From NCBI GenBank assembly GCA_943328975.2, contig CALQCC020000030.1, forward strand, positions 1 to 58,695: a stretch of DNA of 58,695 bases, given 5' to 3'. The stretch is from Bordetella parapertussis. GTDB taxonomy: Bacteria; Acidobacteriota; Terriglobia; Bryobacterales; Bryobacteraceae. A program made the translations under genes and the position numbers. Shown here piece after piece: positions 43,093 through 56,073 of the stretch. How positions within the stretch are numbered: the stretch's first letter is position 1; the number at the start of each line of letters is the position of its first letter. The notes beneath the pieces are model-generated. The model worked only from the letters and a program-made list of their open reading frames with translations. It searched no databases and had not been told where the DNA came from.

Positions 43093-43614
43093 ATGAAGAA
43101 AGCAATGTTCATGATCATGGTCGCGTTGGGCGTGACCGCATTCTTGATGGCGCAAGACGCCTCCAAGTTCAACGGCACCTGGAAGGGCGACGGCGGACAG
43201 GTACGCAAGTTGAACTTCAAGGACGGCATCGTATTCATGGAAGAGCAGAATACCAACGGTTTGCTGATCCTCCGCCAGTACCCCACGCAAGGCCAGGAAA
43301 TCACCATGAGCGAAGGCGTGTGGAAGGACTCCAAGGCTACCGGCAAGATGGTTGGCAATAAACTAGTCGTCGAGACCACCATGCCGAACGGCACCGAGTG
43401 GCACGATGAATGGACCATGGCTGCGGACGGCAAAACCTACGCCGCTCTTCGTGTGATGGTGAAGGCCGGTGCCGGCGGAGCGTTCGGCGCTGCCAAAGGC
43501 GGCGCTCCGAAGGCCGCTGCTCCTGCTGCGGCGAAGGGTCCCGGCGGCGCTGGCGACGGCAAGGGTAAGGCTGCTGCTCCTGCTGAACCGGAAACGTTCA
43601 CCAAAATTCAGTAA
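43093..43614 (+). CDS. Small secreted protein with Ala/Lys/Gly tail
   Basis: 173-residue exported protein: signal MKKAMFMIMVALGVTAFLMAQ, a beta-rich core of about 100 residues (KFNGTWKGDGGQVRKLNF, EWHDEWTMAADGKTY) with lipocalin-like strands, then a low-complexity tail (GGAPKAAAPAAAKGPGG and onwards). AGGAG precedes the ATG. The stop codon lies in the first of three 18-bp repeats that lead into the next gene, so the two are probably co-transcribed. Function unknown. Confidence 0.7.
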   Translation: MKKAMFMIMVALGVTAFLMAQDASKFNGTWKGDGGQVRKLNFKDGIVFMEEQNTNGLLILRQYPTQGQEITMSEGVWKDSKATGKMVGNKLVVETTMPNGTEWHDEWTMAADGKTYAALRVMVKAGAGGAFGAAKGGAPKAAAPAAAKGPGGAGDGKGKAAAPAEPETFTKIQ

Positions 43615-43662
43615 CGGTTTTAAGGTCAGTAACGGTTTTAAGGTCAGTAACGGTTTTAAGGA
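43609..43662 (+). repeat. Three tandem 18-bp repeats between two genes
   Basis: CAGTAACGGTTTTAAGGT occurs at 43609-43626 and 43627-43644, and at 43645-43662 with the last base changed. The first copy holds the stop codon of the upstream gene; the last supplies the AAGG ribosome site of the next gene. Confidence 0.95.
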
Positions 43663-52165: not shown

Positions 52166-52834
52166 ATGCCCAGCAGCCGCCACGAACGATCGTTGCGGTT
52201 GCTGGGTTACTCCGCCATTGCCGGAGTGGACGAAGCTGGCCGTGGTGCACTTTTTGGACCCGTGTTTGCTGCCGCAGTGATTCTTGACCCCGCCCGTCCT
52301 ATTCGTGGCTTGGATGACAGTAAACAACTGTCGCCTGACCGCCGCGAGTTCCTCTCCCGTCGCATCCGTGACCGCGCCCGAGCGTGGGCCATCGGAGCCG
52401 CTGACGCCTTTGAAATCGACCACTGCAACATCCTCGAAGCCAGCCGTCGCGCCATGCAGCGTGCCATCTCCCAACTTTCTCCCGCTGCAGACAGCCTCCT
52501 CATTGATTTTGTGAAACTGCCTGTCGACCTCCCCCAGCGGAACCTCGTCCATGGCGATTCGCTCAGTTTTTCCATCGCGGCCGCGTCCATCCTGGCCAAA
52601 ACCGCCCGTGACCACGCCATGGCCGCCTGGGGCGCTATCTTCCCGGAATTCGGACTGGCTTCCAACAAAGGCTACTCCTCGCCGGACCATCTGGCAGCAC
52701 TGCGGCGCGTGGGTCCGACCCCGCTCCACCGCTTCAGCTTTGAGCCCGTACGCGCTGCTGGACCGCAATTTGCGTGGCAGGGCTACCCAATCGCCACCGA
52801 GACCGGTCCAACTCAGGGAGAACTCTTCGCGTGA
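52166..52834 (+). CDS. rnhB: Ribonuclease HII
   Basis: 222-residue RNase HII, which removes ribonucleotides and RNA from RNA-DNA hybrids. The active-site block GVDEAGRGALFGPV (Asp, Glu) is near residue 20, then DDSKQLSPDRR and ILAKTARDHAM. It follows rplS, its usual neighbour, by 16 bp. Its TGA stop shares a base with the next start codon. Confidence 0.95.
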   Translation: MPSSRHERSLRLLGYSAIAGVDEAGRGALFGPVFAAAVILDPARPIRGLDDSKQLSPDRREFLSRRIRDRARAWAIGAADAFEIDHCNILEASRRAMQRAISQLSPAADSLLIDFVKLPVDLPQRNLVHGDSLSFSIAAASILAKTARDHAMAAWGAIFPEFGLASNKGYSSPDHLAALRRVGPTPLHRFSFEPVRAAGPQFAWQGYPIATETGPTQGELFA

Positions 52835-53118
52835 TGCCAGAGTCATTCCCCATTCATCCTGTTCCGCCATCCGATCCTGCGTCCCGCCGGTATCGCATCC
52901 TTCGGTATGTGTTCGCCCTCTTCACGCTGGAAGTCGGCCTGTTCCTTTTCATCTTCCCCTGGACTGACACCTGGCTTTTCAACTACTTCCAGGATTCCAA
53001 CGAGATTCTCCGCAACATTTGGGAAGATCCGTACTTCCGTGGCGCCATTAGCGGACTGGGAGCCGTAAACATCTACCTGGCCATCCACGAATTCCTGCGA
53101 ACCCTTCGAGGGGAATAA
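52834..53118 (+). CDS. Small two-TM membrane protein
   Basis: 94-residue protein with two hydrophobic segments: ILRYVFALFTLEVGLFLFIFP and GAISGLGAVNIYLAIHEFL. The ATG at 52834 overlaps the rnhB stop (TGATG), so it is coupled to it. Function unknown; probably the last gene of the trmD group. Confidence 0.75.
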   Translation: MPESFPIHPVPPSDPASRRYRILRYVFALFTLEVGLFLFIFPWTDTWLFNYFQDSNEILRNIWEDPYFRGAISGLGAVNIYLAIHEFLRTLRGE

Positions 53119-53192
53119 GTCTCTTGTTGTTCGCGGTATCGCCCCTTCTTCTCCCTGCTCTAAAACCCTAGTACTTTCTAAACTTTTGGCTT

Positions 53193-53222
53193 GCAATCTC
53201 TAAGGTGAATCACTTACACTGT
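53193..53222 (+). promoter_or_regulatory. Probable promoter of the repeat-peptide gene
   Basis: TTGCAA followed by TACACT at about 18 bases is the best match to a sigma-70 promoter in the 200-bp gap. It would give a leader of about 95 bases. Confidence 0.35.
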
Positions 53223-53231
53223 CTCAGTGAG

Positions 53232-53310
53232 TATTCCTCCCGTTCGTTAGGGGGAAAGCTTTAGCACTTTGTGGGTTGGGGTGCTACGCAAAGACGGAGT
53301 ATGGAGGTTT
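53232..53310 (+). promoter_or_regulatory. Structured 5' leader of the repeat-peptide gene
   Basis: TAGCAC (53262-53267) pairs with GTGCTA (53281-53286), extended by CTTT/AAAG. CCTCC near 53236-53240 can pair either with GGGGG near 53250 or with the ribosome site GGAGG at 53303-53307. Such switching is typical of translation-control leaders. No known class is recognised. Confidence 0.35.
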
Positions 53311-53321
53311 AGAAAGTCATC

Positions 53322-53546
53322 ATGAAGAAGAGCCAAAAGTTGGCCGCCGTGATTGCACTAGTGTTTATGTTGGCGATGGCCATCAGCCCAGTTGCGGCTG
53401 GTCCGTGGCCGTTTCCTGACGACAGCGCTGGTGGCAACATCGCAGCGGGTCCGTGGCCGTTTCCGGACGACAGCGCTGGTGGCAACATTGCTGCCGGTCC
53501 GTGGCCGTTTCCAGACGATAGCGCTGGCGGCAACATCAACGCGTAA
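53322..53546 (+). CDS. Secreted peptide precursor with three identical repeats
   Basis: 74-residue precursor. A classic signal peptide (residues 1-26, ending PVAA) is followed by three copies of GPWPFPDDSAGGNI (27-40, 43-56, 59-72), separated by Ala-Ala. The DNA units differ at several third codon positions yet encode the same peptide, so selection has kept the protein sequence. The plan (signal plus identical units with short spacers) resembles precursors cut into several copies of a peptide, or a short adhesive/structural secreted protein. The ATG is 14 bases after GGAGG, longer than usual. A seven-TM protein gene follows at 53613. No known family is recognised. Confidence 0.75.
   Translation: MKKSQKLAAVIALVFMLAMAISPVAAGPWPFPDDSAGGNIAAGPWPFPDDSAGGNIAAGPWPFPDDSAGGNINA
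53400..53543 (+). repeat. Three in-frame 48-bp coding repeats
   Basis: Units at 53400-53447, 53448-53495 and 53496-53543. Apart from the last two codons before the stop, differences between copies lie at synonymous positions. Confidence 0.97.
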
Positions 53547-53575
53547 TTTTTCGCGTAAAGTTGTAAAGTTTTGAG

Positions 53576-53625
53576 GCCACGTGCCGTTCTCCTATATAGG
53601 TAGGAGCGACACGTGGCTTTTGTTT
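53576..53625 (+). promoter_or_regulatory. Hairpin holding the ribosome site and start of the 7-TM gene
   Basis: GCCACGTG (53576-53583) pairs with CACGTGGC (53610-53617), and CTCCTA (53589-53594) with TAGGAG (53601-53606). This hides the ribosome site AGGAG and the GTG start at 53613. The inner CCTATATAGG can instead pair with itself and free the site. A T-rich tail (TTTTGTTT) follows, so it may also stop transcription. Confidence 0.6.
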
Positions 53626-54311
53626 CTGAGGTGCTGAGTTACGGAGGGATGATTCTTCAAGTCATTGCTCTGATTTTCTTGGCGCGTGGCCCCATCACCC
53701 GCTACTTTCCGCTTTTCCTCTATCTCTTTACCCTGTTTGGGATTACCTCCGCGTTAGGCTGGGTCTACCGCACTCAAGGCGTCTCCAACGAACTCTACTT
53801 CAATGTCTATTGGGGCGGGGAAATTCTGAATGACCTGCTCTTATTCTTCCTGGTAATCTCCCTCACGACGCGCGCACTGGAAGGCAGTCCACTGAAACCC
53901 AAGATCGTTCGCTTGCTGGCGATCGTGTTGGTGGTCGTGGTGGTTGCGCCGTTTGTGTTGTTCGATAGCGACATCTTTGGACGCCGTTGGAATCAAAGCG
54001 TCGCGCAGCTCCTGAATTTCGGAGCGGGGGTGATGAATCTGGCGCTGTGGAGCGCACTTCTCTTGTCCCGTCAGCGGGACCGTCAGTTGTTGACCGTCAG
54101 CGCGGGTCTGGGTGTGACAGTCGCAGGAGCGGCCTTAACGCTCGGCGTGCGGCAGTTTACGCATCAGGATGACCTGCTGCGGACGATTACCGATGTAGTC
54201 TACCGTGTGAGCCAAATCGCGAGTCCGCTGATTTGGTGCTGGGCTTTCCGGCCGGCGAAACCGAATCTTGCGGTTCCGCCCCCGGTGGATATTACTGCTT
54301 CCGCAAGCTAA
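53613..54311 (+). CDS. Seven-TM membrane protein of unknown function
   Basis: 232-residue protein with seven likely TM segments (about residues 8-25, 31-52, 66-86, 98-117, 130-153, 157-181, 192-213). Loop 2-3 carries NELYFNVYWGGEILNDL, resembling a YFxxYWxxE mark I associate with small seven-TM proteins of Acidobacteria with no known role. Few charged residues in the membrane argue against a transporter core. The GTG at 53613 has AGGAG 6 bases upstream. Placed 66 bp after the repeat-peptide gene, it could export, sense or protect against that peptide. It overlaps the convergent aspS by 20 bp. Confidence 0.75.
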   Translation: MAFVSEVLSYGGMILQVIALIFLARGPITRYFPLFLYLFTLFGITSALGWVYRTQGVSNELYFNVYWGGEILNDLLLFFLVISLTTRALEGSPLKPKIVRLLAIVLVVVVVAPFVLFDSDIFGRRWNQSVAQLLNFGAGVMNLALWSALLLSRQRDRQLLTVSAGLGVTVAGAALTLGVRQFTHQDDLLRTITDVVYRVSQIASPLIWCWAFRPAKPNLAVPPPVDITASAS

Positions 54312-56073
54312 GGCCGAGCTCGCGCAGGCTCTTATCAGGAACCTCGCTGGGAGCTTCGCACATGACGTCCGTGGCCTTCGCCGTTTTGGGGAAGGGGATG
54401 ACGTCACGGATCGAAGTTTCGCCCGCCAGAATCATCACCAGACGGTCCAGTCCTAAAGCGATGCCGCCGTGCGGAGGCGCACCGTATTCGAGACCTTCGA
54501 GCAGATGGTTGAACTTCTTCCGGGCTTCTTCCTGGCTTAGGCCCAGTGCCGAGAAGACTTTCGATTGGATGTCCTGACGGTGGATACGGATGGAGCCGGA
54601 GCCAAGCTCCGTTCCATTGAGCACCAAGTCGTAGGACTTGGCGTGGCAATGCGCGGGGTCGGATTCCAGCTTGTCGATGTCGGTATCGAGTACCGAGGTG
54701 AACGGATGGTGCGCCGCGTTCCAACGGTTTTCTTCTTCGTCCCATTCGAACATGGGGAAGTCCAGCACCCAGAGGAACTTGAAGTCTTTGCCTTCGAACG
54801 CCTTGTGTTTGTCAGCGAAACGCTGTGCGGCTTGCAACCGGAGCTGTCCGCAGGCGGCCAACATGGTGTAATCGGGACGCTTGCCCTTCAGTTCGCCACC
54901 CCAGCCCGCCATCAGCAGCAGATCGTCCGCGCCGACGTAGAGCAGGTCGCGAACCTTCGCCATTTGAGTGGGGAAGTCGCGTTCCAAGCGGCGCACGTCG
55001 TCAAACACGCGCAGGCCACGCTCTTGCCCGAAGGCCTTCAATTCGTCGCGATCCTTGCGGCTCACGGTGCCCACGTTGGGAATCCGGATGGCCACCAAGG
55101 GCATGCCCTCGGCTGTGAGACCCTCACCCTCAAACAGGTGTTCCACGCAATGGAACGGCGGGATGCGCATGTCGGGTTTGTCGATGCCGTACATGTGCAT
55201 CGCGTCGTTGTAGCTCAAGCGCGGGAACGGAGCTTCCACGTTGTAACCGGCGACCTTGCAGGCGGCGACGACCAACGGCTCAATCACTTCGAAGATCTGT
55301 TCCTGTTGCGGGAAGGACATCTCCAAATCGATCTGGGTGAACTCGGGCTGGCGATCGGCGCGCAAGTCTTCGTCGCGGAAGCAGCGCGCGATCTGGAAGT
55401 ACTTGTCAAAACCGGAGACCATCAGCAACTGCTTGAAGATCTGCGGCGACTGCGGCAGCGCGTAGAATTGCCCCGGGAAAACGCGGCTGGGCACCAAATA
55501 ATCGCGCGCGCCTTCGGGAGTGGAGCGGCCCAGGAACGGCGTCTCGATTTCGAGGAAGCCCTGGTCGGTCAGAACCTTGCGAATTTCAAACGTGATCTTG
55601 GAACGCAGGATGATGTTGCGCTGCATCTGCGGGCGGCGCAGATCGACGTAGCGATACTTGAGGCGCGCGTCTTCCTTCACGTCCACGTTCTCTTCCATGG
55701 GGAAGGGCGGCGTCTTCGATGTGTTCAGAATATGCAGCTTCTCGCACACGATTTCGACTTCGCCGGTGGGGATGGACGGGTTGATGGTGTCCTGGGAACG
55801 CAGGTCCACCAGGCCTTCCACGGCGATCACGTACTCGGGGCCCAGCATGTCGGCCTTGAGGTGGACGGCGGGGTCGCCATCGGCACGGAACACGATCTGC
55901 GTCACGCCTTCGCGGTCGCGCAGGTGCAGGAAGAGCACGCCACCCAAATCGCGGCGGCGATGGACCCAACCCATGACAATGGCGCGTTTGCCGGCGTCGG
56001 CGGCGCGGAGTGCTCCGCAGGAGTGCGTGCGGCGAAGGTCGCCGAGAAAGTCTAGAGGTACTTGTTCTTCCAT
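54292..56073 (-). CDS. aspS: Aspartyl-tRNA synthetase
   Basis: 593-residue class IIb enzyme that charges tRNA-Asp. An N-terminal OB anticodon-binding fold (MGWVHRRRDLGGVLFLHLRDREG), motif 2 (FRDEDLRADRQPEFTQIDLEM), the bacterial GAD insertion and motif 3 (GGIALGLDRLVMILAG) are all present. Whether it also charges tRNA-Asn cannot be told from this window. It lies 5 bp after hisS in the same operon. Confidence 0.96.
   Translation of the reverse strand: MEEQVPLDFLGDLRRTHSCGALRAADAGKRAIVMGWVHRRRDLGGVLFLHLRDREGVTQIVFRADGDPAVHLKADMLGPEYVIAVEGLVDLRSQDTINPSIPTGEVEIVCEKLHILNTSKTPPFPMEENVDVKEDARLKYRYVDLRRPQMQRNIILRSKITFEIRKVLTDQGFLEIETPFLGRSTPEGARDYLVPSRVFPGQFYALPQSPQIFKQLLMVSGFDKYFQIARCFRDEDLRADRQPEFTQIDLEMSFPQQEQIFEVIEPLVVAACKVAGYNVEAPFPRLSYNDAMHMYGIDKPDMRIPPFHCVEHLFEGEGLTAEGMPLVAIRIPNVGTVSRKDRDELKAFGQERGLRVFDDVRRLERDFPTQMAKVRDLLYVGADDLLLMAGWGGELKGKRPDYTMLAACGQLRLQAAQRFADKHKAFEGKDFKFLWVLDFPMFEWDEEENRWNAAHHPFTSVLDTDIDKLESDPAHCHAKSYDLVLNGTELGSGSIRIHRQDIQSKVFSALGLSQEEARKKFNHLLEGLEYGAPPHGGIALGLDRLVMILAGETSIRDVIPFPKTAKATDVMCEAPSEVPDKSLRELGLSLRKQ

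Follow-up and report, generated by a model that had tools for sequence, protein, structure and literature searches.

Here we describe a two-gene cassette in contig CALQCC020000030.1, a 58,695-nucleotide stretch of Acidobacteriota DNA that is referred to throughout as the window. The first gene encodes a small precursor in which a signal-like leader is followed by three identical short units, and the second encodes a predicted seven-helix membrane protein (7TM protein). The cassette is real and larger than first described, it recurs across one bacterial family and parts of a class, and neither of its products has a name in the libraries searched. We consider it probable that the cassette encodes a multi-copy secreted peptide ligand together with its own 7TM receptor, a pair that would work in the manner of the repeated pheromones of Bacillales or of yeast alpha-factor. 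Peptide signalling through free-standing seven-helix receptors is usually regarded as a eukaryotic theme, and a ligand and 7TM pair would offer a testable handle on communication in the Acidobacteriota, an abundant and poorly understood soil phylum, as well as about a hundred natural ligand-receptor pairs for studies of specificity. In a literature search whose scope left out most subscription journals and all bioRxiv preprints, no description of the precursor-7TM pair was found.

The precursor gene and its association with a membrane protein

The positions of the precursor open reading frame (ORF) and of the features around it are given in Table 1. As read from the sequence, the leader has a basic start, a hydrophobic core and small residues at its end, and its terminal SPVAA appears by eye to be a usable signal-peptidase site. 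A hydrophobic N-terminus is common to the precursor homologues whose start lies on the contig. Tandem Repeats Finder reports an array at 53400-53537 with a period of 48, 2.9 copies and 91% matches, and comparison of neighbouring units and linkers gives 10 synonymous and no non-synonymous differences. A first-pass annotation of the window had described this same layout of leader, three protein-identical units and Ala-Ala between them, and had taken silent changes such as CCT/CCG/CCA and GAC/GAT, both correctly read, as a sign that the peptide itself is selected.

That annotation also knew of no bacterial family with such a unit, and database searches bear it out. Searched at E 1, the precursor hits nothing in Pfam or NCBIfam, neither the precursor nor the 7TM protein reaches the cut-off for any family in these two libraries, and PHROGs returned two weak matches without a name, at E 0.011 for the precursor and at E 0.016. 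Several other origins and roles were tried and rejected: anti-phage defence, as PADLOC matched none of four proteins, the precursor among them, at E 0.1; phage or plasmid origin, the precursor having no match among phages and the 7TM protein none among plasmids; and a leader riboswitch, for which Rfam gave nothing, whether in the window at the gathering threshold or at E 0.1 in 11 homologue loci.

With the precursor as query, 166 of 201 genomes had at least one hit at a threshold of E 1, most of these being noise. Of the first 30 loci, 21 were read, and relatives were picked out by the arrangement of proline-rich units behind a hydrophobic leader. Immediately 3' of these relatives the DNA, judged by eye, encodes a start resembling that of the next gene in the window, a similarity that pointed to this neighbour, the 7TM gene. 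The 7TM protein as query finds 92 places in 84 of the 201 genomes, counting the window's own, with E no higher than 0.001. A precursor lies upstream in 69 of the 92, with tandem units in 64 and one unit in 5. The first-pass observation is thus more than chance, given that its layout recurs ahead of the same membrane-protein gene, and the homologues with conserved units on which that annotation had staked its claim are present in many Acidobacteriota genomes. The gap between the precursor and the 7TM ORF ranges from -2 to 152 bases, apart from 610 in G043.

Among the 23 places without a precursor, the contig ends within 430 bases upstream in 9, and the other 14 have sequence there yet none that is recognisable as a precursor. 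Contig ends fall within 600 bases of the 7TM match upstream in 20 of 90 places and downstream in 2 of 90, an upstream excess that would be expected if repeat arrays break assemblies. The two weakest of the 92 places, G184 with three units and a second G141 row on C74 with no precursor, are not part of the counts given on 90, 87, 63 or 62. A detector of our own design, which calls a closed frame of 40-260 residues with a hydrophobic start and a repeat score of at least 10, fires in 51 of the 69 upstream regions that extend over 600 bases or more, compared with 1 of 934 background stretches, each 930 bases long and drawn from the same loci, with the strands counted apart. In 10 of 63 repeat precursors the leader falls outside the scored frame owing to a contig end or an N stretch. 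The choice of start codon, and the division of the 7TM protein into periplasmic and cytoplasmic halves used below, likewise follow our own definitions. In a second set, of newly drawn genomes, a precursor was found in 31 of 49 7TM places: 30 by a looser detector (a minimum of 34 residues instead of 40, and frames cut by a contig end allowed, as five were) and one, in G642, by eye, its two units scoring just below the detector threshold. These 49 come from 53 places; four partial or weak ones, in G626, G641, G680 and G691, were dropped.

In the window's family, 120 of 237 genomes, from 42 of 76 genera, match a profile of the 7TM protein, and some genera lack it; when the phylum was sampled, the figure was 10 of 396 genomes, with the window's own genome and genus accounting for two of the ten. 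A wide spread in the phylum is rejected on this count, and the system therefore belongs mainly to the window's family and some other families of the class. Some of these distant members have precursors too, with five units in G148, three degenerate units at one G440 copy and short one-unit candidates in others. The 19 relatives that carry names are metagenome-assembled Bryobacterales, Bryobacteraceae, Terriglobia, Sulfopaludibacter and unclassified Acidobacteria.

Some genomes depart from the one-to-one arrangement. G440 has four distant 7TM copies (L195-L198), each preceded by a short candidate ORF of leader plus proline, and one contig of G141 (L145) carries a tandem run of several 7TM-like genes with no precursor between them. 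In the window's genus, the 7TM copies L076 and L083 (G005), L080 (G019) and L090 (G017) have no recognisable precursor, and G019 and G017 carry another 7TM copy that does; the precursor-less copies in this genus are possibly receptors without a peptide of their own.

Table 1. Features of the cassette and its surroundings in the window
Feature	Position	Strand	Description	Basis
Precursor ORF	53322-53546	+	Leader, three copies of GPWPFPDDSAGGNI joined by AA, then NA and stop	
Signal-like leader	53322-53399	+	MKKSQKLAAVIALVFMLAMAISPVAA, 26 aa, ending SPVAA	Sequence reading
Unit 1	53400-53441	+	GPWPFPDDSAGGNI	Sequence reading, Tandem Repeats Finder
Unit 2	53448-53489	+	GPWPFPDDSAGGNI, AA linker before	Sequence reading, Tandem Repeats Finder
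Unit 3	53496-53537	+	GPWPFPDDSAGGNI, AA linker before; NA and stop after	Sequence reading, Tandem Repeats Finder
7TM protein	53613-54311	+	232 aa, proposed receptor	AlphaFold2 model, genome matches
RNA hairpin between the genes	53573-53620	+	GTG start of 7TM gene in 3' arm	
Upstream neighbour ORF	52774-53118	+	114 aa with hydrophobic stretch; not necessarily part of the system	

The seven-helix protein

AlphaFold2 gives the window 7TM protein a confident model with seven helices (pLDDT 86.9, pTM 0.81), and a second AlphaFold model, also of seven helices, has a pLDDT of 87.6. The nearest solved folds in Foldseek are mostly G-protein-coupled receptors (GPCRs), which make up the majority of the 50 rows shown, with several rhodopsins among the rows and no E value below 0.001. 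Conservation and loop charges were counted on 87 of 90 7TM proteins, those over 190 aa. The charges lean towards an N-out/C-in orientation, and the half assigned as periplasmic is the more variable (2.79 versus 2.26 bits).

Microbial rhodopsins resemble the family in their seven-helix bundle, and one of them, 6kfq, is the sole PDB sequence match up to E 1 (E 0.11). These proteins have a retinal-binding lysine in helix 7, whereas the 7TM family has no conserved lysine in any helix, the maximum being 12 of 87 in a column; in helix 7 itself any lysine occurs in 14 of 87, with at most 4 in one column. Seven-helix membrane proteins with roles in signalling are also found in bacteria as 7TMR-DISM (PF07695), the LytS-type BtsS and RgsP. 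The 7TM protein described here differs in being free-standing, at about 230 aa in the window. It has no match to PF07695 at E 0.1, and 1 of 27 relatives matches weakly, at E 0.0049.

Divergence of the units between species and conservation within genes

Units differ from one precursor to another. Examples are three copies of GPMPFPDDSAGGNI in G008, one of GPNPFPDDSAGGNI in G001 and three of GPWPFPPDDPPSGGNIASGVHI in G018, and imperfect arrays include five copies of HGPVVPPDDGACCRLT with small changes in G017 and nine of GPWPSPDPFERPVAL with F/Y changes in G054. The unit period runs from 10 to 26 residues and is most commonly 15 or 16, two precursors being scored at a doubled period of 34. Much of the family shares a core [G/S]-P-x-x-P-P-[D/N]-P-W, while the closest relatives of the window share GPxPFPDDSAGGN, within which the window and two near relatives differ as GPWPF, GPMPF and GPNPF. 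At least two prolines are present in 61 of 62 units and cysteine in 2 of 62, and the net charge of the 62 lies between -5 and +1, with +1 in 8.

Within a gene, on the other hand, the units are kept alike. The pooled ratio of non-synonymous to synonymous differences (pN/pS) is 0.041 over 63 precursors, the low value that the first-pass annotation had looked for between units. Repeat scoring prefers identical residues and so biases this ratio; as a check, repeats were chosen at the DNA level, and in 62 precursors the mismatches then number 60, 32 and 685 at codon positions 1, 2 and 3. G070, which has an N stretch and is read in the wrong frame, was left out of the codon-position, Mantel and charge counts and kept in pN/pS, to which it contributes 8 non-synonymous and 0 synonymous changes. 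Together with the counts in the window, this pattern supports purifying selection on the units and, as had been claimed from the window, selection on the peptide itself.

The number of units varies from two to nine or more among tandem precursors. It may also vary at short range, as in the near-identical loci of G003 (C170) and G006, both Sulfopaludibacter, which hold 2 and 5 units, respectively; this difference may instead be due to assembly collapse.

Similarity among units was compared with similarity among 7TM proteins in 62 members after removal of near-identical 7TM proteins, and the two are correlated (Mantel r 0.43, 0 of 2000 permutations). The correlation is not localised to the periplasmic half in this test, and no coevolution confined to the ligand side was seen, partial Mantel values being 0.20 for the periplasmic and 0.24 for the cytoplasmic half.

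Expression signals

The predicted hairpin between the two genes has a centroid energy of -27.8 kcal/mol and a z score of -2.84 in a 97-nt stretch, and its stem is largely kept in two relatives. Across 63 loci, the 90 nt after the precursor stop have a mean z of -2.09 compared with -0.14 inside the 7TM gene, both against mononucleotide shuffles. Such a hairpin would be likely to lower expression of the 7TM protein relative to the peptide.

When up to one mismatch is allowed, a palindromic operator, TAGGANNNNTCCTA, is present in 15 of 59 regions upstream of precursors and in 4 of 1107 background chunks, and AGTACTA occurs in 22 of 59 and 6 of 1107, respectively, the 59 being those of 64 upstreams with 200 nt or more. 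Palindromes of this kind are typical of LuxR-type regulators. In 12 genomes the exact operator TAGGANAAATCCTA has 10 sites, 8 ahead of precursors and 2 ahead of a PilZ gene, compared with one match for a reversed control pattern; most of the 12 were picked for showing the operator, so that the informative part is the existence of only two further exact sites. These lie 84 bases upstream of the PilZ genes, at about 4564 in L193 (G099) and about 5151 in L194 (G026), in two species of one genus, and Pfam confirmed the PilZ assignment on the G099 gene. The genome of the window has no exact TAGGANAAATCCTA, and no sigma-70 type promoter was found in 53000-54400.

Neighbouring genes

In genus g42 all 13 7TM places were examined; 3 have a precursor and the other 10 do not. 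All ten precursor-less copies are preceded by an ORF of 626-680 aa that ends 29-128 bases before the 7TM match. In Pfam one of these ORFs has PAS, HisKA and Response_reg domains and is thus hybrid-kinase-like, and the others are called kinase-like by size and similar C-terminal sequence, the histidine box of a kinase being recognisable in 5 of the 10. They look soluble, with no strong hydrophobic stretch. Two of the g42 genomes, G628 and G631, also have another 7TM copy with a precursor.

Elsewhere, the G148 precursor is divergent from a PilZ gene, beyond which lies a LuxR-type response regulator, and one G440 cassette is followed by an unnamed transmembrane protein and a HAMP-SpoIIE gene. Among the listed ORFs on the same strand within 260 bases directly downstream of the 7TM gene, none was recognised as a histidine kinase. 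Neighbours were also scanned with crude motifs, which gave 3 receiver-like proteins and no kinase; this result proves little, the scan having missed the g42 kinases. No modifying enzyme such as would go with a multi-core ribosomally synthesized and post-translationally modified peptide was recognised by eye in the listed neighbours, although one may be encoded elsewhere in the genome.

Two further genes recur beside the 7TM gene. In some other families (L115, L122, L150 and others) it is followed by a third small gene, of about 135-162 aa and with a hydrophobic N-terminus, for whose copies at L115 and L150 Pfam gives nothing at E 0.01; it is possible that this is a coupling protein. In addition, an ORF that by eye resembles a Gfo/Idh/MocA oxidoreductase, of about 435-517 aa, lies just downstream on the same strand in 15 of 90 places (L035, L071, L091, L094, L096, L097, L099, L105, L107, L108, L110, L116, L120, L121 and L126).

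Interpretation of the cassette

The first-pass annotation had offered three functions for the precursor: a peptide signal, a bacteriocin or a small matrix protein. The first is the best supported, mainly because of the adjoining 7TM gene, which that annotation had not used, and the other two are less likely. According to this model, a precursor with several copies of one short proline-rich peptide would be exported through Sec, a protease would cut it between the units, and the freed peptide would be sensed in the periplasm by the 7TM protein of the adjoining gene. Export, cleavage, binding, the direction of signalling and its output are the steps that we infer. In most lineages no recognised partner for the output stands beside the pair. 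In one genus it could pass through the hybrid histidine kinase whose gene precedes that of the 7TM protein, and LuxR-type, PilZ or SpoIIE-type genes, which in a few genomes are close by or share the operator, might also be involved.

The RRNPPA systems of Firmicutes (Rap/Phr, PlcR, NprR and AimR) are described as a small secreted propeptide encoded beside its receptor, a cytoplasmic TPR protein; some propeptides hold up to six identical copies of the mature pheromone, and variation at one position may set specificity (PMC9765709). The likeness is that our precursor, at 69 of the 92 places, adjoins the gene for the 7TM protein, and it holds only if that protein is the receptor. The differences are that the partner here is a predicted seven-helix membrane protein of the Acidobacteriota, with no Pfam match to TPR, and that repetition is the rule here (64 of 69 precursors) and rare there. 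The repeated RRNPPA propeptides appear to be the closest functional parallel. To our knowledge, multi-copy bacterial pheromones are all from Firmicutes and have cytoplasmic receptors (PMC9765709).

A parallel in layout, rather than in sequence, is provided by yeast alpha-factor, whose precursor has a signal peptide and several copies of one peptide and whose receptor, Ste2, is a 7TM protein; here too a multi-copy peptide precursor has a 7TM partner. Fungal pheromone precursors carry dibasic KR cleavage sites between the copies, whereas the linkers in the window are AA, and the two genes are adjacent here. Bacteria are not known to have heterotrimeric G proteins.

It is unlikely that the precursor instead stays uncleaved and anchored in the membrane, as a subunit with a proline-rich periplasmic tail that is a fixed part of a 7TM complex of other function. 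The tight pairing of the genes would suit such a subunit, as would the charged residues after some N-terminal helices, which could be anchors, but from 1 to 9 or more copies of one unit would be unusual in a fixed subunit, and the SPVAA end of the window leader looks by eye like a site for signal peptidase.

We regard as improbable a bacteriocin with its immunity protein, in which the units would be released as antibacterial peptides and the 7TM protein would shield the producer. A small secreted peptide beside a small membrane protein, with fast-changing units, does fit a toxin-immunity pair, and orphan immunity genes can occur much as some 7TM copies do without a precursor. However, class I and II bacteriocins are cationic or cysteine-bearing peptides with a dedicated exporter nearby, whereas the units are mostly neutral or acidic and seldom contain cysteine, and inspection by eye of the same-strand ORFs listed directly downstream revealed neither an exporter nor a maturation gene. 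The pair also looks long-lived, being mostly single-copy in the 84 genomes, with a similar gene order, judged by ORF sizes, in several genomes of the genus. The lack of plasmid matches for the 7TM protein and of phage matches for the precursor, and the ten 7TM genes behind kinase-like ORFs, weigh in the same direction. Just as improbable is a structural or adhesive role, with the repeats as a matrix or envelope element that the 7TM protein helps to place: proline-rich repeats of variable copy number do occur in cell-surface proteins, and a PilZ gene has the exact operator in two genomes, but such a role explains poorly the single-unit precursors in 5 of 92 places, and the likeness of units within a gene, the tiny product and the kinase link in one genus also speak against it.

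Beyond the ligand and receptor reading, which we prefer, we advance only tentatively the larger possibility of a widespread peptide-hormone system in the Acidobacteriota, with a hypervariable multi-copy peptide, a free-standing GPCR-like 7TM protein, separately encoded kinases and a LuxR/PilZ regulon, and precursor-less receptor copies that would sense the peptides of others.

Other features of the window

Several genomes from the genus of the window have, ahead of the precursor, an ORF similar in size to the upstream neighbour in Table 1, the comparison being of size only. A second short repeat is present at 43608-43661, where an 18-base unit, TCAGTAACGGTTTTAAGG, occurs in three exact copies that span the interval between the end of one ORF and a point shortly ahead of an ATG of the next; each copy contains TAA and an AAGG stretch.
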